Position numbers and translations under genes: made by a program | The notes under the pieces: generated by a model | Database searches by the model: none | What the model was told of the DNA's origin: nothing | The model's input: only the letters and a program-made list of their open reading frames with translations | Source of the DNA: Minisyncoccota bacterium | Lineage (GTDB): Bacteria > Patescibacteriota > Minisyncoccia > Phycocordibacterales > PALSA-1337 | NCBI GenBank assembly: GCA_028713005.1 | Contig: JAQTPC010000007.1 | Span: 1 to 46,281 of the forward strand | DNA length: 46,281 bases | Direction of reading: 5' to 3' | Part shown: positions 3,156 through 24,923 of the stretch, piece by piece | Layout of the letters: each line of letters opens with the position of its first letter | Position numbering within the stretch: position 1 is the stretch's first letter

Positions 3156-3194
3156 TATTTTCTCCACATCAGTATGGAGTCATTTTTTAGTAAT

Positions 3195-3231
3195 AAAAAA
3201 ACCGCGTCTCCCCTGTTATGAGGTGACGCGG
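3195..3231 (-). terminator. Rho-independent terminator
   Basis: CCGCGTCACC..GACGCGG-type hairpin followed by T tract (minus). Confidence 0.8.
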
Positions 3232-3255
3232 CTGAATTGGAAGCTTCAGGTTCGC

Positions 3256-4320: not shown

Positions 4321-4430
4321 ATCTTCTAAACTTCCTTTCTTTTTGTTTTTTGTTTGATGTTATTGTTTCTACAAAGACTGTCCCACAGAGAGATAACGAT
4401 GTCTCTCCGTGGGCACTTGCCACAGTGGCT

Positions 4431-5657
4431 TTATTTGTTCGGGGCACCGGATGCTTCGAGGTCGAGGCTGATCGTCGGACGTTGCGCGTTGCCGCGTTCC
4501 ATCTTCGCGATAACCTTTTCGGTTTCCGTGGACATCCGATCCATTTCCAGAATCCGCCCGGCCATTTGAGGCAAGGCTTCCTGTTTGAAACGGCTGATGT
4601 CTTCCATCGCTTGGGTGAGATTGCCGAAGACTTGCTTCAGCGCATCCATGCTGATGTTCTGTCCAGCTGCCATCTTGTGGATTTCAACACCCTGCGTTTT
4701 GAGCATGATGGAATTCTGCACCATGAGGTCAGCCGTAGTCTTATCGACGGCTTGCACCGTCTTCAGCACGATTCGCTGATTGGCCAAGGCCATTGCAACG
4801 ACGACTGCGATTTCCAGCGCCTTAACGGTGACTTCTTCGCAGCGCCGAGCGCAACGAATGAGTTCGCGATTGTTACGAATGATGAGTTCGTAGGAAATCA
4901 CGCCCTGCTGGTTCACCGCCAGATTCGTCTGGCGATCGCTGATGGATTGGCGGAGAGTAAACAGCACTTCTTCTTCGAGGAATTTACGCTGTTCGCTGCC
5001 CTGTTCGAGCTTGTCGATTTCCGCCGCCAGCTTCGTATCCAAAAGCATCGCTGCTTGGATCGTTTTCTGGAGACGGAGCGTCAGATCACGCATTTCCACC
5101 TGATCATCGGCGAGGATGTCATTGTCACGGCGAAGCTGGTCTGCTCCGCTATGCAACTGCACCACAATCGAATCAATGACACTTCCCGCTGACTGCCAGC
5201 GAGTAAAGTATTGATTGAGCGTGGTGCCGACGCCGGGAATGATCGAGAAGAAACGTCCAACACTGCCCGGTTCAAGGAGCTTGAATTTGTTCGGGTTGAT
5301 GGTATCAACCTGAACCTTCAGGTTGACGAGGGCGTTTGCCACCGGACTGCTTTCGGCAGACTGGGACAACACAGAAATCTGCTTCTTGAGCATTGCGCTC
5401 TTGTTGGCAAGTTTCTGGACAAGCGGTGCTGCAATGTTTTCCACTGCATCACGCGTTTGACGCGTCTGTTCGGCATTGGTGACGTCGCACGCCATGACTT
5501 TTTTGAGCCATTCGTTTGCGACACGTTCGGTCTCGGGGTTAACCTTGACCGTAGCCAATTGTTCTCCCGGAATGATTCCCATGTCCTGCGCCACCTGGGC
5601 GGCATTTGCCACCTGAGGTGCAATAGTTTGTGCTGGCTGAACTTGCGTCTGTATCAT
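4431..5657 (-). CDS. TelA-family toxic anion resistance protein
   Basis: TelA-like core ALVNLKVQVDTINPNKFKL...IPGVGTTLNQYFTRWQSAGSVIDSIVVQLHSGADQLRRDNDILADDQ. Confidence 0.88.
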   Translation of the reverse strand: MIQTQVQPAQTIAPQVANAAQVAQDMGIIPGEQLATVKVNPETERVANEWLKKVMACDVTNAEQTRQTRDAVENIAAPLVQKLANKSAMLKKQISVLSQSAESSPVANALVNLKVQVDTINPNKFKLLEPGSVGRFFSIIPGVGTTLNQYFTRWQSAGSVIDSIVVQLHSGADQLRRDNDILADDQVEMRDLTLRLQKTIQAAMLLDTKLAAEIDKLEQGSEQRKFLEEEVLFTLRQSISDRQTNLAVNQQGVISYELIIRNNRELIRCARRCEEVTVKALEIAVVVAMALANQRIVLKTVQAVDKTTADLMVQNSIMLKTQGVEIHKMAAGQNISMDALKQVFGNLTQAMEDISRFKQEALPQMAGRILEMDRMSTETEKVIAKMERGNAQRPTISLDLEASGAPNK

Positions 5658-5699
5658 ATCTTTCTTTGACCTTTCTTTTTTTGGGTTAGTGTTTGAAGT

Positions 5700-6587
5700 T
5701 TATTTTTGAGCAACTGACTTCGAATCCACTTCCAGAAGATTTTCCGGAGCGATTTTCGACGTTTTTGACTTTGCGATCAACTGCTTGAGAAGCTCCGTTG
5801 CCTCTTCCATGGTTCGCTTCGGGGAATCCGTAGCCGACCGGTCTTTAAGCCGGACGACTGCGACTCCCGTCTGATCCATGGTCGCAAGCGCTTCTTCATT
5901 GGTCGCCAGAATATCTCTGACTTCCTGATGAGTTTGATCGTAAACGAGGGCTTGACTCTGCAGCGCTTGAAGCGTGCGTTCGTCAGATGCCGTCCGTTTT
6001 TGTTTTTTACCGAGCGCAATGATCCTGCTCTCGATATCATCCCGTTCAATGTCTGCGATGCTTGTAAGCTGCACGACAATACGTTCGAGATTTGCGAGAG
6101 CGGACGTATACGCCTGCTCGGCGGCATATTTAAGCCTGCTGTAGGTGAGCTCATTTTCAGAGAACACCCGTCCAAAAACATTGACCAGTGTTTGAAACTT
6201 GTCTTCGAATTGGGACACCTGCAGGCGACCTTCGTCACAGCCAAGCTTTTTTAAGTCCTTGGCGAGTTGCTCTGTCTTCTCTTCTTTCATCTTATCAAAT
6301 TCTTCGTGAAGCTTGGCGAAATACTTTTGGGTATACGCGTCGCGTCCGGCAAAAAATCTGATGGCCCAGTTGGTTGCACCAACAAGGAAGCCTCCGGCCG
6401 CGATGCCTGCGGCAAACGGACCGGTGATGATAGAAAAAACAGTAAGTCCGAATGCACCGACAAACCCGAGAGCGACTGGCCCAAGAGTCATAGGATGCTG
6501 AATGGTTTCAGAAAGTGCGGTCCGCCTGGCGGCCGACTCACTGAAATCCAGTGACTGCGGCTCGCCCTGTGGCGGTATATTTTTCAT
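5700..6587 (-). CDS. Membrane-anchored coiled-coil protein of unknown function, adjacent to telA
   Basis: Two hydrophobic Gly-rich segments (GPVALGFVGAFGLTVFSIITGPFAAGIAAGGFLVG) followed by a long charged helical region; SD AGAAAGGAAATAAATG. Confidence 0.7.
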   Translation of the reverse strand: MKNIPPQGEPQSLDFSESAARRTALSETIQHPMTLGPVALGFVGAFGLTVFSIITGPFAAGIAAGGFLVGATNWAIRFFAGRDAYTQKYFAKLHEEFDKMKEEKTEQLAKDLKKLGCDEGRLQVSQFEDKFQTLVNVFGRVFSENELTYSRLKYAAEQAYTSALANLERIVVQLTSIADIERDDIESRIIALGKKQKRTASDERTLQALQSQALVYDQTHQEVRDILATNEEALATMDQTGVAVVRLKDRSATDSPKRTMEEATELLKQLIAKSKTSKIAPENLLEVDSKSVAQK

Positions 6588-6697
6588 TTATTTCCTTTCT
6601 TTATAAGGTTTTTTGTTTTTGTTTAAATTTTCAACGACCAATCGATTGTCCTCTATTCTGCACAAATATACGTATTTGTCAAGGGTCTTCGATAAAT

Positions 6698-6730
6698 AAA
6701 AAACCGCGTTCTCCTTTCGGAAAACGCGGG
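6698..6730 (-). terminator. Rho-independent terminator
   Basis: CCCGCGTTTT..AACGCGG hairpin plus T tract (minus). Confidence 0.8.
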
Positions 6731-6747
6731 TGAATTGGTCACTGAAT

Positions 6748-8409
6748 TTACTGCAAGATTTGAATCCGTTTTGAACATGCAGTGATGTCCTTGGCATAAT
6801 CATGGACGAACTCATCGAGCGCTTCGCGGTGCTCGAGGCGGAAGTTTTGGCCGAAGATGATATCTACGGCACCGGTCACTTCCTCCAAACGAAGCCCGTC
6901 GAACTCCGTGCCGGAAGGAGCTTGCTTTAGACGGTTGAATGTCGCCCGCTTGGCTTCTTCTGCAATGACTGGGATCATGGCGCCACTCAGGATGTTGACG
7001 AAGGTGAACGGCATGGAAATATCCTTGTCGCCTTCCCTTCGGGTGATGTCATACATGACGCGCTTCGGAGAAAATACTTCCTCCACAAACGCATCAGCGA
7101 GAAGATCCACCGTCGTTGTCTTTGAGACCTCGACACCTTTCAGACGATCAAGGAATATGAGACGACTGGCTTCCCGCGTTGGACGCTTTACTTCGATCAT
7201 TATATCAAGGCGACCTGGGCGGGTAACTGCGGAATCAAGCGAATTTGGCTTGTTGGTCATCCCAACAACAATAGCTTTTGACACACGAACCCCCTGCCAC
7301 TCGGCGAGGAATGTCGGCACGATGCTTTTCAAGATGTCGCTACTGACGCCTGAATCACGCTTAGCGAGGAGAGCTTCACACTCGTCGATCACAATCATCG
7401 GACGGATGCTGGTTTCAGTATAGAACTTATTTGCTCTCGCAAAAATGTTCCGTATGAGGGCCTCTGCGCTGCCGATGTATTTGTCGAGGACCTCGGGACC
7501 GCTGATGAGGAAAAACCCCTTACGACCATCGACACCTTTTTCTTTACACATCGCCAAGAACTGGCTGAAAACCGCCTTCATCATCATCGTCTTTGAACAG
7601 CCCGGAGGGCCGAACACGAGGACTCCGTTAGGCGCTTCTTTTTTCAAACGTTTGTAAAGCTCAGGATACCGAAATGGCTCCTCAACGGCTTCAGTGAAAC
7701 GCTGACATGCATCATCTTGTCCATGGACATTACTCCATGTCACCGAACTTTCGGCAACAGTAAACGAATCGTCATTCAAACCATAATTCTCAAGAATGAC
7801 GGTCCCCGTTACATCAAGAACCACGCGTCCGCTTTCTTGGAGCTTGCCGGAAAATTTTCCGGCAAATATTGTTTTTTTATTTCCTTGGAAATCAACGATG
7901 ACAAAAGTATCGTCAATAACGCGGGAAACAAACGCAATGAACCCCGAAGGAATGGCCTTTGTAACAGAAACAATGCGCTCGGCTTTTCGGTCGATCAAGA
8001 CCGTATCACCAGGAGACAGCGTGAAGCTTGAGACCGGAAATTCCATCAGTTGGCCTGCGTAGGTCACTGTGACAAATGTTTCCTGTTCCAACTTTTCATC
8101 AACATCCAAGTCGCAGGTGCCATTATCTACCGAGGGCATCCCGATGCGGAAGAAGTTTTTGTAACCAGAAGGAGCAAACAATACGCATACCCACCCTTCC
8201 CGCTTAGGATCAGGTCCAATGATTTGACCGGACTCTTCAGGGTTCGGATGAAGCGCGTAAAATTTACTTTCCTTTTTAAGCTTCACGATGCGGTTCATCA
8301 CAAACTTCGATGAAGTCATCGGAGTCGGTTTTGAACTCACAAGAAGCGCAGTCGTCTGGACCAAAGGGTATGAAACCTTTGATTCCGGACTCGATTGATT
8401 TTCACTCAT
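6748..8409 (-). CDS. AAA+ ATPase, CDC48/proteasome-activating ATPase-like, with N-terminal beta-rich region
   Basis: Walker A GPPGCSKT, Walker B MIVIDECEALLA, arginine-finger region RPGRLDIMI. Confidence 0.88.
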   Translation of the reverse strand: MSENQSSPESKVSYPLVQTTALLVSSKPTPMTSSKFVMNRIVKLKKESKFYALHPNPEESGQIIGPDPKREGWVCVLFAPSGYKNFFRIGMPSVDNGTCDLDVDEKLEQETFVTVTYAGQLMEFPVSSFTLSPGDTVLIDRKAERIVSVTKAIPSGFIAFVSRVIDDTFVIVDFQGNKKTIFAGKFSGKLQESGRVVLDVTGTVILENYGLNDDSFTVAESSVTWSNVHGQDDACQRFTEAVEEPFRYPELYKRLKKEAPNGVLVFGPPGCSKTMMMKAVFSQFLAMCKEKGVDGRKGFFLISGPEVLDKYIGSAEALIRNIFARANKFYTETSIRPMIVIDECEALLAKRDSGVSSDILKSIVPTFLAEWQGVRVSKAIVVGMTNKPNSLDSAVTRPGRLDIMIEVKRPTREASRLIFLDRLKGVEVSKTTTVDLLADAFVEEVFSPKRVMYDITRREGDKDISMPFTFVNILSGAMIPVIAEEAKRATFNRLKQAPSGTEFDGLRLEEVTGAVDIIFGQNFRLEHREALDEFVHDYAKDITACSKRIQILQ

Positions 8410-8507
8410 AATTAGTTCCTTTCAATTTTCAATTTGTTTATTAAAGACCACGAAATACTGAAATATCTTTATCATGTAAAAGGACTTGTGTCAATGTATC
8501 TTGTAAA

Positions 8508-8536
8508 ATAAAAACCCCGCTCTTTTCAAAGCGGGG
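8508..8536 (-). terminator. Rho-independent terminator
   Basis: CCCCGC-ttt...-GCGGGG hairpin plus T tract (minus). Confidence 0.8.
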
Positions 8537-8566
8537 CTGCTCACATTAAAAATATGAGCGTTGTAT

Positions 8567-10132
8567 TCAATACGTGTCCATAAGCAGGACAACTTCAACT
8601 CGCGGGAGGCGATACCCGTATGCACGATCAGTCTCGCCAGGAATGCGCGGGAGCGGCTTGGTTCCTCCCAGGCCCTCAGCATGGATACGATTTTCATCGA
8701 TACCATACGTGACCGCAAGGTAACGCGCCACTGATTGCGCACGTGCGAGGGATAATTCCCTGTTTGCATCTGTGTCTCCACGAATGTCAGAGTGTCCTCG
8801 AACGCCAATCCGGAAGTTGGGATACCGTTTCATCTTATCTGCAATCTGATCGATTGCTTCCTTGCCTTCGAGGGTGAGCTCGTCGGTGCCAGACTGGAAC
8901 TTGATCGGCTCCACCTTCAGCGTTCCAACGTCTCGCAAACGAGCCCATTGAGCATCAGATAGAACTACGAATTGCGTCGCGGCCGTCGTTGCAGCACCGG
9001 TCGAAACGTCAAACCCTACTCTCGTAGCGCTTGCGAACAGATCGACGATGAAGTCGCTCTTGGTGAGCATGAGCGGATTTTCATCCGGGATCGGATTGCG
9101 ATCCACATCGCCCACCTGACGGAGTATGCCAACCACCCCCTCAATCGTATCAGTCAGCGCATGATGAGGTATCGTGCCTGCGGTTTGCGCAGACTCGACA
9201 CCGAACCATTCACGGGCATTGTCCGTGAGATTGACCCACGACACACCCTTGATCATTTGAGCCGCAGAGGATTGATCCACATGAAGCTCATCCGAAAGCT
9301 CTTTCTCAAGATCGCTCGGATTGTCCGAATAATACTTAAGCACATGGAAGTAAGTCCGAAGCAGCTGTTGGACCACTTCTGGATGTGACATCATCGTGTC
9401 TCTGTTCACCAGAAGGACATCCACGATGACATGCGACGTTCTCTCACTTCCCAGGAGCTTGCCGATACCGGGCATCGCTAAAGCTTTTGAGACTTGCGGT
9501 TCCCAGAGAGTCGCAATGGAGACTTCGTGGCGCTTGAGCTTGTCGAGCGCATCGTCAGATCCATTTGCAAAAACCTTCAGAGTTGATGTTTTCGTTCGAA
9601 GAAACGGGATGTCAAAGTCGACGCCGGCCACCTTCACGAGATGCGCCGAGGGCGAATCTGGAGTAAAGGCGATCTTCTTGGTCACATTGTTCCGCAATGC
9701 ATCGAGCGAAGCGATCTCATTCGTATAGGCGACGATTGCATCGCCACCTTTCGATTCATCGATCACACAAGCGATGACAGCAGGATAACTGACGGCTGCT
9801 CCATTGAGGACGTAGGCATCCACCGTGCACACCGCCAGATTGACAGTGTTTTCGGACAGATGCTTCATGCGAGCAGAATAATCCGCTCCATCATTTTGAC
9901 AGTCCACGAGATACCCTTGTTCGAGCATCTCTTTTTTGAGCCGTTGCGAGCGAAGCGGAAAATATCCGACCCAGTCGTCAACAGCGATAGTGATCTTGCC
10001 TTTCGTTGCTTTCGCATCCGACATCTTTTTTTGGAAATACTTCGTCACATGAGGACGGACAAATTTCCAGCCACCGATGCCGAGCAGGGACAGAACTACA
10101 AGCCATATAATAAGCTTGGTTGTGGTTTTCAT
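8567..10132 (-). CDS. Substrate-binding protein (NMT1/NitT-like) fused to C-terminal OmpA peptidoglycan-binding domain, N-terminal TM anchor
   Basis: TM MKTTTKLIIWLVVLSLLGIGGW; SBP-like AVDDWVGYFPLRSQRLKKEM..; OmpA-like IGVRGHSDIRGDTDANRELSLARAQSVARYL.. Confidence 0.85.
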   Translation of the reverse strand: MKTTTKLIIWLVVLSLLGIGGWKFVRPHVTKYFQKKMSDAKATKGKITIAVDDWVGYFPLRSQRLKKEMLEQGYLVDCQNDGADYSARMKHLSENTVNLAVCTVDAYVLNGAAVSYPAVIACVIDESKGGDAIVAYTNEIASLDALRNNVTKKIAFTPDSPSAHLVKVAGVDFDIPFLRTKTSTLKVFANGSDDALDKLKRHEVSIATLWEPQVSKALAMPGIGKLLGSERTSHVIVDVLLVNRDTMMSHPEVVQQLLRTYFHVLKYYSDNPSDLEKELSDELHVDQSSAAQMIKGVSWVNLTDNAREWFGVESAQTAGTIPHHALTDTIEGVVGILRQVGDVDRNPIPDENPLMLTKSDFIVDLFASATRVGFDVSTGAATTAATQFVVLSDAQWARLRDVGTLKVEPIKFQSGTDELTLEGKEAIDQIADKMKRYPNFRIGVRGHSDIRGDTDANRELSLARAQSVARYLAVTYGIDENRIHAEGLGGTKPLPRIPGETDRAYGYRLPRVEVVLLMDTY

Positions 10133-10253
10133 AGGATAGTAAGCCTTTCTATTTTTGAGTTGAATTGTTGTCGAGGTGCACAAAATATACTGGTGTATGA
10201 ATAACATATTAAAATTGAAAAGTCAAGTATGTGCTTACGGTGCTCTAGAAAAT

Positions 10254-10283
10254 AAAAAAGCCCCTTCGCTTTCGCAAAGGGGC
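10254..10283 (-). terminator. Rho-independent terminator
   Basis: GCCCCTTTGCGAAAGCGAAGGGGC hairpin followed by T tract (minus). Confidence 0.85.
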
Positions 10284-10309
10284 AATAAACGTACCGTTGC
10301 CGGTGTCGC

Positions 10310-11041
10310 TTATTTATCGAACTTTTCTGATTCTGCCGTAACAGCCTTGAAGCCTTTTTTCACTTCTTCTGGGCTTTGAGCATCGGTGTAGTAAGTCTTA
10401 CCCCGCTGGTTCAGACTGTGTCCTTCGCCGATACAGAAGCCGATCGTATGGATAACGACAGGCGTCTTATTGACCTGCGCGATCAGTCCATTTTCAGAGT
10501 CACTCGCCTCGCCATCGGTGATGATGACGATATGGTATTCTCCGTAGCCCAGCTGCTTTGCGCGTTGCTCCTCGAGGCGGCCAAATGCGAACTTAACACA
10601 TTCATACAATGGCGTGCCATTATTAGCGCGCACTGCATTGACTTGATCTTCGAAACCGCGCCGATTGCTTGTCCCAAGAACAGCGCGCTCTGAAATGCCA
10701 GCATTATCGAACACAACCAACCCGATGTTATCGGATGCATTCAAGCTTCGCTCAAAATCGATCACCGCTTTTTTAGCGACTTCAATCTTGGTCGAATTTC
10801 CTGAACACTGGATTTCGTTCATCGAACCGCTTCCGTCGAGCACAATATAGAAATTGCGCCGAAGAAGGTTTGACTCCACTTGAGGTGCTCCGCTGGTAGA
10901 AGCTGTTGCTTGTCCCGCCTGCTCCGGAGGAGCTTGCGGGGATGAGGGCGGAGGCGCTGTCTGAACGGTCGTCGGTTCACATCCCACAATAAAGATCGTG
11001 AGAGCCAACACCAGTAATGAATAAGGTTTGAACTTTTTCAT
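10310..11041 (-). CDS. VWA-domain lipoprotein
   Basis: Lipobox IVGC; MIDAS motif VLDGSGSMNE, later T and D motifs (NNGTPLYE, IITDGEASDS). Confidence 0.88.
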   Translation of the reverse strand: MKKFKPYSLLVLALTIFIVGCEPTTVQTAPPPSSPQAPPEQAGQATASTSGAPQVESNLLRRNFYIVLDGSGSMNEIQCSGNSTKIEVAKKAVIDFERSLNASDNIGLVVFDNAGISERAVLGTSNRRGFEDQVNAVRANNGTPLYECVKFAFGRLEEQRAKQLGYGEYHIVIITDGEASDSENGLIAQVNKTPVVIHTIGFCIGEGHSLNQRGKTYYTDAQSPEEVKKGFKAVTAESEKFDK

Positions 11042-11059
11042 AATATGTAATGTTGGAGT

Positions 11060-12787
11060 TTACTTCACCGGAGTGAACAGCTCTGATTCAGCTTCCACGT
11101 TGGCGACACGGAATACAACGCGCATGTTTGCGCGCCATTCCGCTTCATTCAGTGATGGGAGTGGCTGACCTTTGAACGGGCCGGTTTTCTCCACGCCCTT
11201 CTTCGGCTTCATGCACCCTTGGCCCACGGTCGTGATTTGACTCTCGTCAAGCTTCACACCTTGACTAGTGGCGAACGCAACTAACTCCTCCTTTACGCGG
11301 TTCGCGCGTTTGAGAGAAGTGTTTATATTCACCTGCATGATCTGTTTGAGCTCAAGCTGCGGCGTATTTTCACTGCGTAGTGCCGACAAGTATTTGTTCG
11401 GGTCAGTGTGACCCTCGACCGTTAGGATGGCGCCGCTATACGTGGACACCATCTCTATCACCTTGGTGAACTGATCAGCATACTTTGACGAATCAAAGTC
11501 CGCCATGTTCGGTTCAAATTGGATCTCGAAGGTGAACACGCTATTAAGCGCATCGCCCTTCTTTGCAACGAGAGCCGCAACGGCACCTGCATCGAACCGC
11601 GGACTTTCAGCCTCAACGGCCGTATTCCGCAATCCTTGCTTGATCTTGCTGTAGTCGAACCCTGCGCTGGCAAGCGTCGTCTTGCTCGAAAGCAAGCCAA
11701 GCGCGATGAGCGCAGTCTGATTTTCAGATGAGATCTTGTCGAAACGCCGTGGATAGCTCGAGTCACTGAAGAACTTGATGTTCCCCTGATACCCGACGAA
11801 CGTGCAGCCATCCAAGAGACCCTTGGCATCATTGACCGCATCCTTGCTATCCAAATACACGAACGCTGCCTGCGTCATGAACTTGTCGTATTCTGCCTTG
11901 CGGGCAGAACTTTTCGACAGGTCAGCGAGCTGTTCCTGCGCATTCATCAATGCATTCACAAACGCCTCGACTTCCGCAGGATGAGCCGCGAGGTAGTCAG
12001 AGCGAACCGCATACACATCAGCGATGACGTGGTCAGCAGTTTTTGTGGACATCAAGTAATGCGCACCCTTCACAGATTTTTCCGCACCAGTGCCAACCTT
12101 TCCAGGTCCGCCAGTGAGATTATCTGCGTCAGGCGAGATGCAAAATACCGCATCAACAGAAGGGTCAGCACGGAAGGCGGCATCCGGACTATCGTCCGTG
12201 CCAGTGATATCCTTCACATATTTGATCGTGACATCTTTGACGTCCACACCTGCATCCTTCAGGGTTTGCACCATGAAGTCCACATGCGGTCCATATGCTT
12301 GCACGACGATTGTCTTCCCTCTCAGGTCCGACGCATCCTTGACGGATGGACGGACAACGAGCACATCTCCACCAGACGACCATGTCATCTGGTATACGAC
12401 CACCGGACGAAGCCTCGGGTCCTTGAGGGCCGAGAGCGACTGATTGATCATACCGAGCGTGCCGCGAATGTAAGGGGTAGTGCCGGCGATGTAGTCCTTG
12501 ACCTGATCAGCAAAAACGTCCTTGCGGATGATTTTGAAATCAAGTTTTTGGGCAGCAAACAAACTGTTCGGCTGTGTCTTCACATCACCACCATTTGCCA
12601 GCAAAGTTGCCACGTCGCCACCCCAGGTAATGACCGGGAGCGGAATCGTGCCAGACTTCACATCACCAACTTTCGCTGTCACCACTTGTGACAACTGCTT
12701 GTTCTCGACGTATTGAGCCGCGTTCACACGCAGTGCAACCGTCGCCAGTAGAAGGAGCGCCGCAAAGGACGCCATCATTTTTTTCAT
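11060..12787 (-). CDS. Second substrate-binding protein/OmpA fusion
   Basis: Signal peptide; SBP-like domain (GMINQSLSALKDPRLRPVVVYQMTWSSGGDVLVV); C-terminal FTFEIQFEPNMADF...LTVEGHTDPN...NTSLKRANRVKEEL OmpA-type. Confidence 0.85.
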   Translation of the reverse strand: MKKMMASFAALLLLATVALRVNAAQYVENKQLSQVVTAKVGDVKSGTIPLPVITWGGDVATLLANGGDVKTQPNSLFAAQKLDFKIIRKDVFADQVKDYIAGTTPYIRGTLGMINQSLSALKDPRLRPVVVYQMTWSSGGDVLVVRPSVKDASDLRGKTIVVQAYGPHVDFMVQTLKDAGVDVKDVTIKYVKDITGTDDSPDAAFRADPSVDAVFCISPDADNLTGGPGKVGTGAEKSVKGAHYLMSTKTADHVIADVYAVRSDYLAAHPAEVEAFVNALMNAQEQLADLSKSSARKAEYDKFMTQAAFVYLDSKDAVNDAKGLLDGCTFVGYQGNIKFFSDSSYPRRFDKISSENQTALIALGLLSSKTTLASAGFDYSKIKQGLRNTAVEAESPRFDAGAVAALVAKKGDALNSVFTFEIQFEPNMADFDSSKYADQFTKVIEMVSTYSGAILTVEGHTDPNKYLSALRSENTPQLELKQIMQVNINTSLKRANRVKEELVAFATSQGVKLDESQITTVGQGCMKPKKGVEKTGPFKGQPLPSLNEAEWRANMRVVFRVANVEAESELFTPVK

Positions 12788-12999
12788 ATCGATCGTTACC
12801 TTTCTTTTTTGCTTAGTTATGGTTGATTGTTCTCTGTGTCTTGACAGAATTGTATGAAGTTGTCAACGAACACACTTGAAAAGCAAACTAACAAAGAAAT
12901 GACGATTTGTCAAGTTCATCTATTTGACCAACTTGACATAAGTGTAGTCATGTATAAGTATATGGTCTGAGTTCAACTTGAACATTACCAATACAAACT

Positions 13000-13539
13000 A
13001 TGAAAGCCCTTGTCCTCACTCGACGGACGCGCCTACCAGCGTCAATCCGTCTTTCTCTCAATGCGACCTCGATTCAGTTCGTGGTAGGCGAAATCACCAA
13101 TGCTAAACCGGCTGATGCGGTGATGTCATTGCAAAAGCTGATCAACAGCAGTTCCCCTGACATCATTGCGATTGATGGTGACTATGGTTCCGACGATGCG
13201 CGTCTGTGGCGCGAGCTGTCAGAGCTCACCATCGCAAAACTCCGTCTGCGGATCTTGTCGGGAATCGGGTTACCGGAAAGCCTTAAACTTCTCAGGCTGG
13301 CCAATGCAGTCAAAGATGAAACCTACAACATTGTCATCTTCATTGAACAGCCCAGCGACGGCCTTCGTGCAGAACTCCGTCAACTAGGCGCCTTATGGGT
13401 CTGGCCGACGCTGCACAAGCCATCGGGACTGGAGACTTCATTCCACAAGACCATCACGGGGGCACGCAGCGTTGCAGCTGGCCTATGTGATCTTGTCGCC
13501 GCCGGATTGAAGGCTTTTGAAAAAGTCGGCGCCAAATAA
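13000..13539 (+). CDS. Hypothetical protein, possibly receiver-like fold
   Basis: Divergent from the 11060-12787 gene, TTGACA motif upstream; PDIIAIDGDYGSDD..; followed by terminator. Confidence 0.65.
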   Translation: MKALVLTRRTRLPASIRLSLNATSIQFVVGEITNAKPADAVMSLQKLINSSSPDIIAIDGDYGSDDARLWRELSELTIAKLRLRILSGIGLPESLKLLRLANAVKDETYNIVIFIEQPSDGLRAELRQLGALWVWPTLHKPSGLETSFHKTITGARSVAAGLCDLVAAGLKAFEKVGAK

Positions 13540-13554
13540 TCTGTTTCACTCACA

Positions 13555-13580
13555 TCTCCCTAGATTCGTCTGGGGAGATT
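13555..13580 (+). terminator. Rho-independent terminator
   Basis: TCTCCCTAGATTCGTCTGGGGAGATTTTTAT. Confidence 0.75.
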
Positions 13581-13585
13581 TTTAT

Positions 13586-13616
13586 ATAAAAACCCCGCCA
13601 AAAAGATCTGGCGGGG
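13586..13616 (-). terminator. Rho-independent terminator, near-identical to that at 1187-1215
   Basis: CCCCGCCAGATCTTTTTGGCGGGG plus T tract (minus). Confidence 0.8.
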
Positions 13617-13626
13617 GCTGAAGGAA

Positions 13627-15456
13627 CTAGGTTTTTTTATCACGCTTTTTATTGCGCGGCGGCGTATGCTTCCGAGCAATCACATTGATCGTGCGATAGT
13701 CAGTAGTGTGGCATTTGTCATGCCGCACACGCTCAGCGAAGTTGTTCGAGAAACAATACGATTCACCAGGATACCATGAATGGAGTCCGGCGACATACGA
13801 ACATGTTCCCCACTTCAAGTTGAACACCTTCACCTCGAGGATGAGGGGCGTTGCAAGTGATACGAGGAACTGCGGTTTCTTGAGCCGGTTGCTCCGCTCT
13901 TTGACCTCACCTGCGATCGAGAAGTAATTCTTAAACTTCTTCTTCCGTGCTTCATCGAGCACATCAATGGTTTTGAAGAACTCGACCTTGCTGTGGATGA
14001 ACTTACGCACGATGGTGTCGTGCTTCATTTCGCGAGCAAGATACAGTTCACGGTCTTTGACGAACACTTGATACAGTCGCCAGAGATCGTAGCCACGCGG
14101 AATATTTTCGAGGATGTCCGCGATGCTGTGGTCATATGCATGCGATGGATAGGCTTTAGTCAGATACGGAAGCATACTTTCGCCAACCATGAGATAGGCC
14201 TCGTGGAGCGAATGAATGTATTCGTCTGCTGAGACATTGCCCTGTCGATCATGAACGATGCGAGCAATCTCGAGACGTAATGTCGTGGACCGGTCGGACT
14301 GCCCTTCAGTCTTGATCTGCACACCATCAGGGTCAAGGTTGACTCTGGTCGCCGGAACATATGTTTTGAGCGACGTATCGTAGAGACCCATGAGTGCACC
14401 GGTGATATTTTCTGCCACCGGTCCAAGTGCCGTATCATTGAGATACAAACCAAGCACTGCCATATCGACGGTCTCATACTCTTTGAGCTTAGCACCGTGG
14501 GGAGCCAAGACTGAATGTCCCGACTCATTCCACCGCGACTGGACGACGCACACACCCTCTTCGCCTGCCTGGCGCTTGAGAGCGACATACGCATCCAGCT
14601 CAGCAGGATTATTGACGATCTGCTTTTCAGCAACCGTTGCCTGCAATCCACGCTCAGTCATATATGCACTGAGCTCAGCGAGTAACTCGTCGATGATGCG
14701 ATAGTTTATCGGCAGCTTCGAGAGCGTGATCATCCGTTGCATCTGGAGGATGCGAGGCTCGCCCCATGTCTTGGGATGAGCGATCGCAAAGAGTCCATGG
14801 AATGCAAGCATGAGCTCGAGATGCGGATGAGGAGCGCCAGCCAGATCAAAGATGATCGGGTTGGCCAGATACGCAGCAAGTTTTTCCGGATCGAGACGGT
14901 TCGTGCCCGGCTTGGGCCACGACGACGGACCCGATAGACGGATGTCCTGCAATGCATTGAGTGCTGCATTGTGTTTGAGCAGTTTGGGGATGAGCTCAGT
15001 GTCTCCGATCATACACGGCAACTGTTTGAAGGTGTCCGTGAGCTCAGGGAACATCCGCGGATCATATGGCGTGAACTGACGACTGAATGCCGCCGTGATG
15101 CCGGGACCCCGATGCATCTGCAAACGGAACCCATTGAGTTTGACCGATGCCCGCGTGTAGCGAACATCTTTTTCGTGGCCCTTTCCGGAGCCGAAGAATA
15201 ACTCATTGGCCGAATCGATGAACATCGGATTGAGCGAAGCGATCGGACGACCGACTGTAGGGATGATGCCATCAATATACACCGCGCGCTGATAGGCAAA
15301 GAAGTTGACGATGTCCGTCTCACTCTTGCCTGCCAGGTCTGGGATATACCGACTGATCTCGTCTTGCAAGAACTGCTCAGGAGCAGTGTTGCCGAGAAGA
15401 CCGAGCATGTATCCGCTGACGCGGTCATGCATTTCCTGACTGATGAATTTTGACAT
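13627..15456 (-). CDS. Divergent ATP-dependent DNA ligase-like protein
   Basis: Ligase-like order: VKLNGFRLQMHR (motif I), FSRQFTPYDPRMFPEL..GDTELI (motif III), LAFHGLFAIAHP (IIIa), EEGVCVV (IV), KLKEYETVDMAVLGLY (V), C-terminal ERVRHDK OB-like segment. Confidence 0.72.
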   Translation of the reverse strand: MSKFISQEMHDRVSGYMLGLLGNTAPEQFLQDEISRYIPDLAGKSETDIVNFFAYQRAVYIDGIIPTVGRPIASLNPMFIDSANELFFGSGKGHEKDVRYTRASVKLNGFRLQMHRGPGITAAFSRQFTPYDPRMFPELTDTFKQLPCMIGDTELIPKLLKHNAALNALQDIRLSGPSSWPKPGTNRLDPEKLAAYLANPIIFDLAGAPHPHLELMLAFHGLFAIAHPKTWGEPRILQMQRMITLSKLPINYRIIDELLAELSAYMTERGLQATVAEKQIVNNPAELDAYVALKRQAGEEGVCVVQSRWNESGHSVLAPHGAKLKEYETVDMAVLGLYLNDTALGPVAENITGALMGLYDTSLKTYVPATRVNLDPDGVQIKTEGQSDRSTTLRLEIARIVHDRQGNVSADEYIHSLHEAYLMVGESMLPYLTKAYPSHAYDHSIADILENIPRGYDLWRLYQVFVKDRELYLAREMKHDTIVRKFIHSKVEFFKTIDVLDEARKKKFKNYFSIAGEVKERSNRLKKPQFLVSLATPLILEVKVFNLKWGTCSYVAGLHSWYPGESYCFSNNFAERVRHDKCHTTDYRTINVIARKHTPPRNKKRDKKT

Positions 15457-15572
15457 AGGTAGCCTCTTTTTCTTTCGTTTGTTTCGTTGTTTCTTGTTGT
15501 AAATATTTCAGATATTCTAAAAATAAACTACCATAAAAATAGAGTCGTGTCAAAACATTATTCACGAGTCTT

Positions 15573-16007
15573 TTATAACTCACCCTGCCCCACTCTCCTG
15601 AGCTCAGCTCGGAGCTTCTTCCACTCAGGGATAGTTTCGCCTACCAGATTCCAAAAAGACTTTGCATGATTGAATTCTTTTACATGGCAGATCTCATGCA
15701 CGATGACATAGTCCTGCTGGGCTGGCGCGAGAAAGACGAGCTTATAATTAAAATTCAAATTCCCCTTTCTCGAACATGAGCCCCAACGACTGCGTTGATT
15801 GCGGATAGCGATTTTACCAACTGAAATACCGTGACGTGAACCATAGTACTGCATGAAATGAGCGATGCGTGCATGTACGAGTGCACGTGCCGCTTCTTTG
15901 TTAGCGAGATAGAGCTTGTGGCTACGAGTATGGAAAATAGATCGGCGGAGGATGATCGGACGTGGACGAGTAATTCGAAAAAATGACCGCGTAGAAAAAA
16001 ATTTCAT
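15573..16007 (-). CDS. YgjP-like metallopeptidase (DUF45/M48-type)
   Basis: IRNQRSRWGSCSRKGNLNFNYKLVFLAPAQQDYVIVHEICHVKEFNHAKSFW. Confidence 0.9.
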   Translation of the reverse strand: MKFFSTRSFFRITRPRPIILRRSIFHTRSHKLYLANKEAARALVHARIAHFMQYYGSRHGISVGKIAIRNQRSRWGSCSRKGNLNFNYKLVFLAPAQQDYVIVHEICHVKEFNHAKSFWNLVGETIPEWKKLRAELRRVGQGEL

Positions 16008-16091
16008 GCGATGATTATAGCATTTGACAATCAATATATAAGCGCGTAATTTAAAATCAGAAACAAACAACAAAGAAAGGACATTGTAATT

Positions 16092-16904
16092 ATGGGAATG
16101 CCAAATAACCTTATTCTGGTTCGCCACGGTGAATCAGAAGGAAACATCGCAGTAGCACGTTCAAAACGTGGCGACCACAGTGCTTATGAAAGCGAGTTCA
16201 AAAAACGCCACAGTTCACTCTGGCGCCTGTCAAAAGAGGGCCAGCGTCAAGCAATGCAAACTGGCGAATGGATCAAGCAAAATCTTGGTCTTACGTTTGA
16301 CCGCTTCTATGCATCAGAATATCTACGCGCCATGGAAACTGCCGCACTTCTGGATATTCCTGAAGCAAAATGGTTCACGGAATTTTATCTTCGTGAACGC
16401 AGTTGGGGTTCGCTCGACCGAGCCTCAGTTCTGGAACGCACTGAACGCTTTCAAGAATCCCTTGAGGAACGTGAAATCGATCCGTTCTACTGGACTCCAC
16501 CAAATGGCGAATCGCTCGCAGAACTCTGCATTCGGATCGATCGAGTGATTAACACCCTGCATCGCGAATGCAACGGCAAAAATGTCATCATCGTTTGCCA
16601 TGGCGAAGTCATGTGGGCATTTCGTGTCAGGCTCGAACGCATGCCTCAGGAAACTTTCCGCTTGCTTGATGGCTCGAAAAATCCAGCTCATCGGATCCAC
16701 AATTGCCAGGTGATTCACTATACGCGAATCAATCCCAAAGCATCCGGCGTAAGCCCATCGAGACACCTCGATTGGGTGCGCTCCGTGTGTCCGTGGGACA
16801 ATGCGCTCACTGATGCTCCTTGGCAACATATCCATCGTCCCAGTTATACCAACCAGAACCTCCTCGATCGAGTCGAAAAAACAAAACCTCTCATCATCGA
16901 GTGA
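16092..16904 (+). CDS. Histidine phosphatase family protein (phosphoglycerate mutase-like)
   Basis: LILVRHGESEGN and IIVCHGEVM motifs; SD AAAGAAAGGA. Confidence 0.9.
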   Translation: MGMPNNLILVRHGESEGNIAVARSKRGDHSAYESEFKKRHSSLWRLSKEGQRQAMQTGEWIKQNLGLTFDRFYASEYLRAMETAALLDIPEAKWFTEFYLRERSWGSLDRASVLERTERFQESLEEREIDPFYWTPPNGESLAELCIRIDRVINTLHRECNGKNVIIVCHGEVMWAFRVRLERMPQETFRLLDGSKNPAHRIHNCQVIHYTRINPKASGVSPSRHLDWVRSVCPWDNALTDAPWQHIHRPSYTNQNLLDRVEKTKPLIIE

Positions 16905-16917
16905 GATCAAAATCACC

Positions 16918-16946
16918 AGCCGAAGGTTTTTCCTTCGGCTTTTTTA
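16918..16946 (+). terminator. Rho-independent terminator
   Basis: AGCCGAAGGTTTTTCCTTCGGCTTTTTT. Confidence 0.9.
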
Positions 16947-17177
16947 TTTCTATATAAAATGAGACCCATACAAATGTATGGGTCGGGGTGAAAGAGCTAA
17001 AGAGCAGAAAGAAAATGAAGAGGGTGATGGGATGTGAGATATATCGGGGCAAAAATGCGGCTGAGAGGACGTGAGTTGGTTAAAGTCATGGGAAAGCCGA
17101 TATATACACAGACCAGAGCACCGTTCAAATTCTTTTTAAAAGATCAATCAAACCTACACTCGTAGTATAGGCTAAAA

Positions 17178-17456
17178 TTATTGAAAAGTCAAGAGCTCCA
17201 TCTTCTCTTTTCGCGTAAGCGCCTTGAGCTCACCTTCCCTTTTTCGTGCGAGCGCATAACTGCGGCATTTCTTACTCCAGACCAGCACCACTGGCCTGCG
17301 AATCTTTGTATAGTGTGCGCCTGATTTCAAATGATTGTGCTTGTGCAACCGATTTTCCATATCATTGGTCGAACCGACATAGAGGGTATCATCGGCACAT
17401 TTCAATATGTAAACGTGGTATGCCCCTGGCCGTTTGATCACTGATCTCTTTTTCAT
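17178..17456 (-). CDS. GIY-YIG nuclease family protein (UPF0213/YhbQ-like)
   Basis: YHVYILKCADDTLYVGSTNDMENRLHKHNHLKSGAHYTKIRRPVVLV. Confidence 0.92.
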   Translation of the reverse strand: MKKRSVIKRPGAYHVYILKCADDTLYVGSTNDMENRLHKHNHLKSGAHYTKIRRPVVLVWSKKCRSYALARKREGELKALTRKEKMELLTFQ

Positions 17457-17478
17457 TACTTAATTATAGTACAAAAAA

Positions 17479-17509
17479 ACTGCGGCCACCGTTTCGGTAA
17501 TGCCGCAGT
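17479..17509 (-). terminator. Rho-independent terminator
   Basis: ACTGCGGC..GCCGCAGT followed by T7 (minus). Confidence 0.8.
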
Positions 17510-17522
17510 ATGTTGGAGTAAC

Positions 17523-17669
17523 CTAGTCGTATTCGAGGATGGGAGCGATGGGCTCCCGCGCTTGATGAGTCGTAAACATATTCGTCCCAGCTTTCAAATG
17601 AAGCTGATCGCACCGAACATGCTCACCGTGCTCAGGAAGCAAATCCTCTTCTCGCCAGTCATTATTCAT
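17523..17669 (-). CDS. Small protein of unknown function (48 aa)
   Basis: Promoter TTGACA-16-TATAAT, SD AAGAAAGGAG before ATG (MNNDWREEDLLPEHGEH..), dedicated terminator. Confidence 0.55.
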   Translation of the reverse strand: MNNDWREEDLLPEHGEHVRCDQLHLKAGTNMFTTHQAREPIAPILEYD

Positions 17670-17756
17670 GGCAGAGGGCTCCTTTCTTCGTTTGTGCTCC
17701 AGAGGGACGTCCTCCAGAGCGGTTATGGTTTGCAAATGAACTATACTAACAGGAGT

Positions 17757-17784
17757 ATTATAGCATAGTTAGTATATTTGTCAA
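17757..17784 (-). promoter_or_regulatory. Consensus sigma70-type promoter
   Basis: TTGACA-16-TATAAT on minus strand. Confidence 0.75.
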
Positions 17785-17811
17785 GTACCCCATAAAAGCC
17801 TCGGTTGAGGG

Positions 17812-19098
17812 CTACAAAAACAACAGATTCCTATCAGGACTATCCGCATCTGTTCCCTTGCCTTCATCTCGATCACGAACACGTGCTTTGTGGGTAGAGG
17901 CGAGATAGACGATATTTCTACCAAACTTTTCTTCGAGCTCATCTATCTGTTTGTGGATGATCTCGTACTTTTCCCCCTTCTTCGTCGACTCTGTCTTGAG
18001 ACCACCACCAAAGAGATCGCCTTGGATAGCAACACTCTCTTTTGAGACCAGTCCATGCAAGGTTACACCAGCGGTTCGATACAAGACTTGTTTGCGAAAT
18101 ACTTTATGAAAATGTTTTTCGATCAGATCCGTGATGATCTCTGGTGCATTGGTCGGTGCATCGAGGGTGAATCGGTAGTTGTGGTATTCGAACGTGCGTG
18201 TCTTCAAGAAAATAGAAACGTGACTGGACATGAGGTCGAAGTGGCGAGCTTTGGCACAGGCATCTTCGATATGTTTTGAAAGTTGAGAAAGGAGGAATAC
18301 CGGATCGTTAGTGGCAGGATAAAATGAACGGGTCTTTTGGACCGAGTCATAGCTCGTCTTTGGATTGGGATCGACGGGCATGACTGATGTGCCATTGAGC
18401 TCGAACCACAGAGCTTCGTGAGGCTTGGAGAGATTGTCATTGATCCAGTTACGACTCTTACCAGCAAAGTCGAGTGCAGTGATGAGCCCCTTCTTTTTGA
18501 GGAAAATAGTCGTCTGTGTACCGATACCCCAGATCTTACCGATAGGTGTTTCAGCGAGAATGTTTCTGGATGAATGTGCATCAGTACCCACATCAATCAT
18601 AGTGAAGCCGTTTGGCTTTTTATATTTTGACGCAACCTTTGCAAGAACTTTCGTTGGTCCCACACCAACTGATATAGACAGGCCGAGTTCTGCGGTGATC
18701 TCACGCTGAATACGCTGGGCAATCTCTCTGTATGACATCTTGAGCGGACGATCAAGGCCAGTGAGTTCGGCGAAGCATTCATCGATACTGTACTCCTCCA
18801 CGTCATCAGCATACCGGCGGACAATGTTGAACATCATCTCTGAATAGCGGGCGTAGCTGGCATAGTCGCCAGGTAATATGATGACCTGCGGAAATTCTTT
18901 TTTGACGCGGAAGATGGGCAGACCACGGACGATGCCGAGCGCTTTGGCTTCATAGGAAAAGGCTGAGACGATACCGCGCTCTTCTCCGGTCACCACTGGT
19001 AGACCTTTGAGCTTTGGGTTCTTGGCCACTTCGCAGGCAACAAAAAAGGCATCACCGTCCATGTGCATGATCACTTTTTGTTTTGCATGAATGTCCAT
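17812..19098 (-). CDS. dinB: DNA polymerase IV (Y-family)
   Basis: IMHMDGDAFFVACEVA, YSIDECFAELTG, GVGPTKVLAKVASKYKKPNG. Confidence 0.93.
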   Translation of the reverse strand: MDIHAKQKVIMHMDGDAFFVACEVAKNPKLKGLPVVTGEERGIVSAFSYEAKALGIVRGLPIFRVKKEFPQVIILPGDYASYARYSEMMFNIVRRYADDVEEYSIDECFAELTGLDRPLKMSYREIAQRIQREITAELGLSISVGVGPTKVLAKVASKYKKPNGFTMIDVGTDAHSSRNILAETPIGKIWGIGTQTTIFLKKKGLITALDFAGKSRNWINDNLSKPHEALWFELNGTSVMPVDPNPKTSYDSVQKTRSFYPATNDPVFLLSQLSKHIEDACAKARHFDLMSSHVSIFLKTRTFEYHNYRFTLDAPTNAPEIITDLIEKHFHKVFRKQVLYRTAGVTLHGLVSKESVAIQGDLFGGGLKTESTKKGEKYEIIHKQIDELEEKFGRNIVYLASTHKARVRDRDEGKGTDADSPDRNLLFL

Positions 19099-19104
19099 GC
19101 ATAC

Positions 19105-19127
19105 ATTATAGGTGAACGGAGGTTCAC
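19105..19127 (-). promoter_or_regulatory. dinB promoter -10 with overlapping GAAC-N4-GTTC palindrome (DinR/LexA-like SOS box)
   Basis: GTGAACCTCCGTTCAC directly upstream of TATAAT, which lies 6 nt before the dinB ATG. Confidence 0.6.
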
Positions 19128-19140
19128 TGGGTAGGGGTGC

Positions 19141-19221
19141 GTTCCATTTTGGAACATACCACTTAAGCAATATGCATTTTGTGCATATTGCCTTTGAACT
19201 GTTGCATTATTTGCAACAGTT
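19141..19221. repeat. Three tandem perfect inverted repeats
   Basis: GTTCCATTTTGGAAC; GCAATATGCATTTTGTGCATATTGC; AACTGTTGCATTATTTGCAACAGTT. Confidence 0.85.
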
Positions 19222-21313: not shown

Positions 21314-21538
21314 TTATATCTTCAGATCAGGCATAAATGGTCCAGCAACTTCAATTGCTTTTTCTTTCGCTGGATTTATTTGTTCATTCCAACAAACTTT
21401 AACATCCCAACGTATTGGCCATTCAAAAATACAATTAGCAACAAAGTTGTACGCGAACTGAAGAATAAATACTATAGTTAGTAATACAAAGAAAAATATC
21501 CACCAAAATCGCTTAAATGTTAGTCTAAATTTAGGCAT
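21314..21538 (-). CDS. Small single-TM membrane protein
   Basis: MPKFRLTFKRFWWIFFFVLLTIVFILQFAYNFVANCIFEWP; start overlaps hsdR end. Confidence 0.5.
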   Translation of the reverse strand: MPKFRLTFKRFWWIFFFVLLTIVFILQFAYNFVANCIFEWPIRWDVKVCWNEQINPAKEKAIEVAGPFMPDLKI

Positions 21539-23834
21539 ACAATCTCTTCTGGAACGCAAAGAAGTTTGATCTTATCAACTCAACTCCGCCAAGAGCTTTC
21601 TCAGCATCTGAGATAGCATGATACTTAAGGTTGAGCAACTGTGGCAGTTTTTCTTCATCCAATTCTTCAACACCTCTTTCTTGATACTTAGCTAACACAA
21701 ATTCAATAAACTCACGATGCTTTTCATCCAAGCCATCCAAGATGTCGTACTTTGTATTTTGAATTCTTTCTGCACGAGTAATAGGTTGTAGTGCAAATGC
21801 AATGTAACCGAGCACATCAAACAGATCGCTGTTCTCAGCGTTTATTATTTTCTGCACTGATTCGAGTTGATTTTTACCGTATCCAAGTTCACCGAGCTTA
21901 TCGAGAAACACCTTTCTTGTTTGAGGATTGGACCATATAGCCCTAAGTTCGTTCTCATCTTTGAAAAGTGACGGTAGTACACCGAACATGTTTTGTAAGA
22001 ATTCTTCAGCAGAAATGGGTTTACCATCAGCCCTCCAAAATGAAGTCTGGACCATGTGCTGTATTTCTCTTTCTTTACCATCACGAAGTTTAATTTTTAA
22101 CTTCCTTGGCTGTTCTTCTGGTTCAGGTGTTGGTCCGGGTTCTCTGGGTTCCTTAGGCTCTTTGGGTTCCTTTGGCTCAACTTCTTCAGTAGTCTGATCA
22201 ATTGGCTCACCATCCCATTCAGGATCGAGGAAATGATGATAAGCATCTACGAAATCTATAATGGTGAAATATTCCTTACCGTCAAAAAGTCTTGTACCAC
22301 GTCCAACTATCTGTTTAAACTCAATCATTGAATTTACAGGGCGCATAAGCACGATGTTTCGGATATTTCGTGCATCTACTCCTGTAGAAAGTTTCTGTGA
22401 GGTCGTCAAAATTGTTGGGATAGCTTTTTCGTTATCTTGAAATTCTCGTAGATATTGTTCACCGAGAAAACCGTCATTTGCAGTAACACGCTGACAATAG
22501 TTTGGATCCTTACTTTCCTTGTGTTTATTTATCAAATCACGAACAAGAAGTGCATGACCTTGTGTAGCGCAAAATACGATAGTCTTCTCATTTTGATTAA
22601 TCTCTTTCAAAAAGATTTTTACTCGAGCTTCCTCACGTTCAATGATCTTGATATTCCCTCGAGCAAAATCGTCCTCTTTATAAACCTTTCCTTCTTCAAC
22701 TTCACCTTCAATAATCATGTCATCAGAGGTGTAAATGTATTCATCAAGAGTTGTCTTGATCCTTTTGACCTTGAATGGAGTTAGGAAACCGTCATTGATG
22801 CCTTCTTTAAGTGAGTAGACATAGACTGGCTCACCAAAATACTTATAGGTATCTGTATTATCTTTTCGCTTTGGAGTAGCAGTGAGACCTAGTTGGACTG
22901 CAGGAGAAAAATATTCAAGAATGCCTCGCCAGTTAGATTCATCATTTGCACCACCTCGGTGACATTCATCAATGATGATGAAATCAAAATAGTCTGAAGG
23001 ATAATCTCCGTAGTATGGGGTTTCATTTGGACCACTCATAAAAGTCTGGAAAATAGCAAAGAAAATACTGCCGTTCATTGGTACTGCACCTTTTTTCTTA
23101 ATATCACTTGGAGTTATACGTACCAAAGCATCTTCTGGAAATGCACCGAATCCGTTAAAGGCTTGATCGGCAAGTATATTTCTATCTGCTAAAAATAATA
23201 TACGGGGCCTACGTACACTAAGTGGTGAACCGTCCCAACGAGATTGGAATAATTTCCATGCGATTTGGAAAGCAATAAACGTTTTACCTGTACCAGTTGC
23301 CAACGTAAGAAGGATGCGTTTCTTTTTCTCTGCAATAGCGTCCATGACTCGATTTACCGCAATCTCCTGATAGTAACGAGCACTTTTACTACCGTTCACA
23401 TCTTCAAACGGAACATTCGCAAACTTTTCTTTCCATAGGTTTTGGTCTGAGTACGTCTTGTCCCATAGCTCATCTGGTGTAGGAAATTTAGTGACGGTAC
23501 CCTCAATACCAGTCGTCATTCCAATCTCATAGATCTCATGCCCATTTGTAGAGTAAGTGTAGGCAGTCTGCAATTTCCCAGCGTATGTTTTTGCCTGTGC
23601 AACACCTTCAGTTGGTGATAGCGACTCTTTCTTAGCTTCAATAACTGCGAGCTTACGATTCTTGTATACCAAGACATAGTCTGCAATTTCAGGCTTTGGT
23701 GTCACACCTCCAATAACAATCTTTCCAGGAGTTATGCGAAATTCTCGAAGGACTTTGGACCCTTCGATAACACCCCAACCAGATTCCTTTAGCTTTGGAT
23801 CGATATATTCAGCTCTAGTCTCAGATTCGTTCAT
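21531..23834 (-). CDS. hsdR: Type I restriction enzyme R subunit
   Basis: N-terminal nuclease (VLVYKNRKLAVIEAKKE), LATGTGKT, IIIDECHRGG, QIVGRGTRL motifs. Confidence 0.93.
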   Translation of the reverse strand: MNESETRAEYIDPKLKESGWGVIEGSKVLREFRITPGKIVIGGVTPKPEIADYVLVYKNRKLAVIEAKKESLSPTEGVAQAKTYAGKLQTAYTYSTNGHEIYEIGMTTGIEGTVTKFPTPDELWDKTYSDQNLWKEKFANVPFEDVNGSKSARYYQEIAVNRVMDAIAEKKKRILLTLATGTGKTFIAFQIAWKLFQSRWDGSPLSVRRPRILFLADRNILADQAFNGFGAFPEDALVRITPSDIKKKGAVPMNGSIFFAIFQTFMSGPNETPYYGDYPSDYFDFIIIDECHRGGANDESNWRGILEYFSPAVQLGLTATPKRKDNTDTYKYFGEPVYVYSLKEGINDGFLTPFKVKRIKTTLDEYIYTSDDMIIEGEVEEGKVYKEDDFARGNIKIIEREEARVKIFLKEINQNEKTIVFCATQGHALLVRDLINKHKESKDPNYCQRVTANDGFLGEQYLREFQDNEKAIPTILTTSQKLSTGVDARNIRNIVLMRPVNSMIEFKQIVGRGTRLFDGKEYFTIIDFVDAYHHFLDPEWDGEPIDQTTEEVEPKEPKEPKEPREPGPTPEPEEQPRKLKIKLRDGKEREIQHMVQTSFWRADGKPISAEEFLQNMFGVLPSLFKDENELRAIWSNPQTRKVFLDKLGELGYGKNQLESVQKIINAENSDLFDVLGYIAFALQPITRAERIQNTKYDILDGLDEKHREFIEFVLAKYQERGVEELDEEKLPQLLNLKYHAISDAEKALGGVELIRSNFFAFQKRLYA

Positions 23835-23853
23835 GTATTGACATTATACAATA

Positions 23854-24921: not shown

Positions 24922-24923
24922 AA

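Follow-up and report, generated by a model that had tools for sequence, protein, structure and literature searches.

ATP-dependent DNA ligases of the archaeal and eukaryotic LIG1 type (PF04675 + PF01068 + PF04679; e.g., L010/P0002 from the phylum studied here, phrog_114, and the Thermococcus ligase 3rr5) carry motifs I, Ia, III, IIIa, IV, V, and VI in that order. The Asp of motif I (KxDG) is treated as a signature of ATP-dependent DNA ligases because it helps to hold the catalytic metal; in the Prochlorococcus ligase, the waters of this metal are held by the motif I Asp, the motif III Glu, and the motif IV Glu (PMC6698739). Minimal ligases of bacteria and viruses (Lig E and those of the Chlorella virus and phage type) are far smaller proteins that comprise nothing beyond the catalytic core; the bacterial ones are accessory to LigA (PMC6144786, PMC8455567). 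They grip the duplex through loops and latches, and in the Chlorella-virus-type ligase a DNA-binding latch is appended to the catalytic core (PMC6144786, PMC8455567). Asn is accepted in motif I in the wider superfamily, including its tRNA-ligase branch: the structure paper on the fungal/plant tRNA ligase Trl1, compared here through its adenylyltransferase domain, writes the motif as Kx(D/H/N)G (PMC6592678).

We analyzed a stretch of 46,281 nt from a Minisyncoccota bacterium (hereafter, the window), in which an open reading frame (ORF) at 13627–15456 on the minus strand encodes a divergent ATP-dependent DNA ligase-like protein of 609 residues. With LIG1-type ligases, this protein shares the order of all seven motifs, the catalytic Lys/Arg/Glu/Lys set, and a nucleotidyltransferase (NTase) domain followed by an OB domain. 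Unlike them, it has KxNG instead of KxDG and FHGLF instead of FDxLY, has lost the motif IV Lys, is only about 20% identical in sequence, lacks the 220-residue DNA-binding domain, and has a helical module of ~140 residues in the OB domain. Minimal ligases likewise lack an N-terminal DNA-binding domain, whereas the window protein gains a large helical module plus an N-terminal helical domain and has KxNG as its motif I. Trl1 resembles it in the Kx(D/H/N)G form of motif I and in having an extra all-helical specificity domain, but is similar to T4 Rnl1, with the helical domain located C-terminally, whereas the window protein has a DNA-ligase motif Ia, motif VI, and an OB domain (PMC6592678). The NAD-dependent LigA (TIGR00575) shares the superfamily chemistry and co-occurs in the same genomes. 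Judging from its sequence, the ORF is a member of the DNA-ligase branch of covalent nucleotidyltransferases. By strict criteria, its product is outside the canonical PF01068 family, as KxDG, the motif IV Lys, and the DNA-binding domain are absent.

Gene, Motifs, and Domain Layout

The ORF starts with ATG and contains all the motifs quoted in an earlier note on this DNA, which had given the bounds of the gene correctly. Whole-genome searches identified three homologues (G005:C26, G108:C113, and G365:C9), which together with the window protein form a family of four with pairwise identities of 43–63%. The gene is free of stops, and third-position differences exceeded second-position differences ~2-fold across these proteins, as expected of a maintained protein. 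The family was compared to a canonical set of 30 ATP-dependent ligases from the same phylum. As MAFFT misplaced canonical ligases that had been cut in pieces, contiguous fragments ending mid-OB were aligned instead. The alignment of 31 sequences contained 16 invariant columns: P71, K106, G109, R111, H115, R126, P137, E154, R235, G298, E300, G301, K323, K325, D331, and G336.

Motif I, KLNGFR (residues 106–111, including K106, N108, and R111; 15124–15141, minus strand, as are all features below), had its K, G, and R invariant in the 31 sequences. It reads K[LE]NG[FY]R in all four family members and KxDGxR in 30/30 canonical ligases; the replacement of KxDG by KxNG, reported in the earlier note, is thus real, and Asn108 is kept throughout the family. 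The motif Ia region, FSRQFTPYDPRMFPEL (15040–15087), is of the DNA-ligase type, with R126 and P137 invariant in the 31 sequences and the SRQFT..FPEL stretch of residues 125–139 as in LIG1-type ligases (PF01068). In motif III, IGDTEL (14992–15009; GDTELI at residues 151–156), E154 was invariant and the D-x-E form is usual in relatives. DTE, previously taken for a substitution, turned out to be ordinary, since canonical relatives carry LDGE, LDSE, LDTE, LDCE, or LDAE. Motif IIIa, FHGLF (F219, H220; 14788–14802), was invariant in the four members and corresponds to canonical FD[ILV][LM]Y, a pairing made by eye, as MAFFT offsets that stretch.

Motif IV, EGVCVVQS (14536–14559; EEGVCVV at residues 299–305), retains E300 and G301, invariant in the 31 sequences, while its +5 position, Lys in 29/30 canonical ligases, is Val305 in 4/4 family members. 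The position two residues before the motif I Lys (K-2) is Ser104 in the family versus Glu or Gln in 30/30 canonical ligases. The K-2 residue and the motif IV Lys are among the positions described as contacting the adenine base (PMC6698739). Both K323 and K325 of motif V, KLK (14482–14490), were invariant in the 31 sequences; this motif opens the stretch KLKEYETVDMAVLG (residues 323–336), as quoted in the earlier note. Motif VI, RVRHDK (residues 576–581, 13714–13731; ERVRHDK at 575–581), lies in a low-confidence region of the structure model and aligned with canonical R-x-R-x-D/E-K; R578, D580, and K581 were invariant in the family of four. The protein therefore has the hallmarks of the covalent nucleotidyltransferase superfamily, namely the motif I Lys in Kx(D/H/N)G and motifs III, IV, and V in order. 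It also has the OB domain and motif VI of LIG1-type ligases, the OB strands being modelled and the motif VI region being of low confidence.

Four parts could be delineated. An N-terminal helical domain (residues 1–62, 15271–15456) comprises three helices in the AlphaFold2 model (H7–18, H25–41, and H46–60). The NTase domain (residues 98–325, 14482–15165) was delimited by alignment to canonical ligases. The first half of the OB domain (residues 327–373, 14338–14478) aligned to the canonical OB and has model strands E327–339, E351–360, and E365–373. A module of ~140 residues (about 386–524, 13885–14301) within the OB domain was helical in both models described below. An insert of roughly 150 residues had been proposed earlier between the adenylation part and the OB region. 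The insert exists, but it is placed differently: the OB strands start right after motif V, at residue 327, with the module inside the OB domain. Catalytic Lys106 is preceded by 105 residues, compared to about 242–286 (usually ~245) in canonical ligases, and the N-terminal DNA-binding domain PF04675 gave no Pfam match in the window protein.

Assignment to the Ligase Branch

When searched alone against Pfam, the window protein matched PF01068 (DNA_ligase_A_M) with 19.7 bits (E 7e-4), under the gathering cut-off of 26.2 bits, and it was unmatched in the genome-wide PF01068 search at E ≤ 1e-3. It also matched phrog_114 (E 3.3e-6) and NCBIfam PRK03180 (E 0.002), and all its informative library matches were to models of ATP-dependent DNA ligases. 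No RNA ligase or mRNA capping family was matched: Pfam at E ≤ 10 returned DNA_ligase_A_M only, within the reach that HMMER filters allow. The window protein was not among the matches of TIGR00575. Sequence searches of the PDB, with the protein alone or a four-row profile, yielded either nothing or chance matches, mostly to DARPin/ankyrin chains.

Comparison of a four-member profile to the 30 canonical ligases using hhalign gave a probability of 97.5 and an E-value of 7.9e-12, versus E-values of 0.25 for the reversed profile and 0.04 for the best of 30 column shuffles. These controls weigh more than the E-values themselves, which refer to a single profile pair. The signal came from the core (E 1.2e-12 for the core alone). 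No significant match was obtained for the N-terminal part, the insert, or the isolated C-terminus, so that neither a relation of residues 1–62 to the ligase DNA-binding domain nor a match of module 386–524 to canonical ligases was detectable by hhalign. Profile searches thus returned ligases for a gene that the earlier note had called a divergent ligase on the basis of its motifs. The ligase/nucleotidyltransferase fold is supported by the library matches, hhalign, the invariant columns, and the Foldseek results below.

Structure Models

An AlphaFold2 model based on the four-member alignment had a mean pLDDT of 40.8 and was confident for the insert helices only. Adding 27 canonical core fragments to the alignment raised pLDDT to 75.1, with a pTM of 0.74. 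The second model consists of the N-terminal helical domain, the NTase domain, OB strands right after motif V, and the helical module, in that order. pLDDT was mostly 73–97 in the NTase domain (98–325), except around residues 160–190, and the C-terminus was poorly resolved (546–609 under pLDDT 50). Compared to the PDB with Foldseek, the second model had 100 matches with E ≤ 0.001; the 50 best, which were listed, were all DNA ligases or ligase complexes. TM-scores normalized by query length were low (0.2–0.36), which mobile domains may account for. Importantly, as canonical ligases were present in the alignment, the ligase fold of the second model is partly built in, and the Foldseek result is supportive rather than independent. 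Predicted viral structures matched by the model were mostly DNA ligases.

Distribution and Co-Occurrence with LigA

The ligase-like gene was detected in four of roughly 1100 distinct genomes, the denominator being an estimate. It was present in 2/34 genomes of the genus and 3/397 genomes sampled in the order, the window's own included. The class and phylum samples yielded no homologue beyond the window's own and returned one canonical ligase. The homologues are located at L003:718–2523 (G005:C26, also returned as CAIQCA010000026.1 of an uncultured bacterium), L008:4084–5874 (G108:C113), and L009:7977–9743 (G365:C9). Among the genomes searched, the helical module occurred in the window genome and these three others only. 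The G005 gene is 56% identical to genes of other families, but only 43% identical to the window gene of its own genus. Such closer kinship outside the genus fits horizontal transfer or patchy loss; mis-binning of the G005 contig is also possible, as the bin is 74% complete. In G005, a tRNA gene is located at the contig start (L003:8–79; L003:496–568), and the ligase-like gene begins 150 bases past it. IMG/VR scans for close relatives and tblastn searches in phages and plasmids found no relatives, leaving a viral or plasmid source without direct support.

LigA, scoring above the curated cut-off, was intact in 4/4 hosts; in the window genome, it is a separate gene on another contig (C7). The enzyme is therefore accessory, as the earlier note had suggested, and replacement of LigA by the ligase-like enzyme was rejected. 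The accompanying premise, that CPR bacteria (Patescibacteria) normally depend on LigA, is valid within this order but not across the phylum. DNA_ligase_A_M was above the cut-off in 80/287 sampled genomes of the phylum, compared to 8/173 genomes of the order, where about four matches were clear ATP-dependent ligases. The other above-cut-off matches in the order were weak and fell in frames of 673–683 residues, which is the length of LigA.

Proposed Function and Alternatives

Taken together, the sequence evidence points to a real, conserved, and sporadic DNA-ligase variant that is built like the canonical enzyme and most likely works like one. We favor, with some reservation, an accessory enzyme of the DNA-ligase branch, a polynucleotide ligase spread by horizontal transfer that would seal nicks and hold its substrate with a non-standard clamp. 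We infer its activity, ATP as its cofactor, DNA as its substrate, and the role of the insert as follows. Aided by motif VI of the OB domain, Lys106 would attack a nucleotide (most likely ATP) at its alpha-phosphate, yielding lysyl-AMP. Where a nucleic acid duplex is broken, the 5'-phosphate would then receive the AMP, and the nick would be closed by the 3'-OH. The retained residues fit this three-step ligase reaction. Asn108 would stand in for the motif I Asp, with Glu154 and Glu300 remaining as acidic residues of the metal shell. The helical module in the OB domain, and perhaps also the short N-terminal helical domain, probably grips the substrate instead of the missing DNA-binding domain.

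This nick-sealing reading is weakened by the absence of KxDG, by the replacement of two base-reading residues of known ligases (by Ser104 and Val305), and by the single-sequence Pfam score under the gathering cut-off. The partly built-in ligase fold of the second model and the poor quality of the family-only model also count against it. The motif I Asn would suit an RNA-joining or RNA-repair ligase acting on nicked RNA, an RNA–DNA hybrid, or tRNA from a DNA-ligase scaffold, given that KxNG is accepted in the tRNA-ligase branch, that Trl1, too, carries a unique all-helical domain believed to set substrate specificity (PMC6592678), and that a motif IIIa histidine is present in RLIG1 (His195, PMC11494293). 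We consider this unlikely: the Arg at motif I +5, SRQ..FPEL, and the OB domain with R-x-D-K are traits of DNA ligases, the matches were to models of DNA ligases and none to RNA ligases, and the four copies have no RNA-repair gene (kinase, phosphatase, or RtcB) as a conserved neighbor. Loss of the motif I Asp in all members would also fit a catalytically dead ligase-like protein whose role is limited to binding nicks or ends of DNA, yet Lys106, R111, R126, E154, E300, K323, K325, and R-x-D-K are invariant despite identities of 43–63%, and Asn is accepted at this position in the wider superfamily (PMC6592678), making a dead ligase improbable.

The changes at the adenine-contact positions, from Glu/Gln to Ser104 at K-2 and from Lys to Val305 in motif IV (contacts per PMC6698739), could instead indicate an active nucleotidyltransferase with another cofactor (e.g., GTP) or with an end reaction other than ligation, such as capping or tagging of 5' ends. 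This is improbable, as the DNA-ligase-specific motif Ia sequence and motif VI are kept, and recognition of adenine could still be provided by Gln306 or Ser104. More tentatively than the nick-sealing ligase itself, and with considerable doubt, we suggest that the four proteins may represent a distinct clade of mobile Patescibacteria polynucleotide ligases, defined by KxNG, changed base-reading residues (possibly reflecting another cofactor or an RNA-containing substrate), and an OB-inserted helical module replacing the DNA-binding domain. A natural, conserved KxNG enzyme on a DNA-ligase scaffold would test how essential the motif I Asp is. The OB-inserted module would be another way to grip DNA without the usual binding domain, which would be useful for understanding and engineering ligases.

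Genomic Setting

The gene is carried by an inserted segment of about 15 kb (601–15560) located upstream of the rRNA operon; the beginning of the 16S rRNA occupies bases 1–278 of the window. In two genomes of the same genus (G001 and G024), the segment is absent: the 16S leader is followed within about 1.2–1.8 kb by YgjP and then by GIY-YIG and a Y-family polymerase, the same genes as those at 15573–19170 of the window. The segment encodes NMT1-type/ABC transporter genes, TelA, an AAA ATPase, OmpA-fused binding proteins, a VWA protein, an ORF of unknown function, and the ligase-like protein. Its G+C content is 0.50, compared to 0.425 for the rest of the window, and in the other three hosts the ligase-like gene ranked 2 of 7, 1 of 9, and 3 of 24 in G+C within its locus. 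Because of the absence of the segment from G001 and G024, its higher G+C content, and the G+C richness of the gene in other hosts, we conclude that the ligase-like gene is probably on acquired DNA. This adds to the evidence that inserted segments bring accessory genes for DNA processing into Patescibacteria. The search for an integrase or a clear target duplication at the segment was negative; the only repeats detected were a chance match of 13 bases and an A/C-rich match of 18 bases (1187 and 13588), the latter not convincing as a target-site duplication.

Neighboring genes differed across the four genomes, with no conserved operon partner. The association with a TelA cluster noted earlier amounts to one shared inserted segment, as TelA was not nearby in the three other members. 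A role in anti-phage defence was considered and not retained, the ligase-like protein having no PADLOC match.

Several other features of the window were recorded. The AAA ATPase beside TelA (6748–8409, minus strand) is weakly similar to the PADLOC models for IetA and TRIP13-type AAA proteins (E 1e-12 to 1e-6). In two minus-strand ORFs next to TelA (8567–10207 and 11060–12787), a substrate-binding-like region, NMT1/THI5-like in the second, is unusually joined to an OmpA domain at the C-terminus. The VWA ORF of the inserted segment is lipoprotein-like. A histidine phosphatase gene (16092–16904, plus strand) lies between YgjP and GIY-YIG and is not there in G001 and G024, which suggests a second small insertion. 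By sequence, the region 21531–27826 (minus strand, G+C 0.39–0.40) resembles a type I restriction-modification system (helicase/HsdR-like, HsdS-like, and HsdM-like). Both ends of the contig carry parts of an rRNA operon, all on the minus strand: the 16S 5' end (1–278), 5S (44436–44543), and the 23S 3' end (45510–46281).
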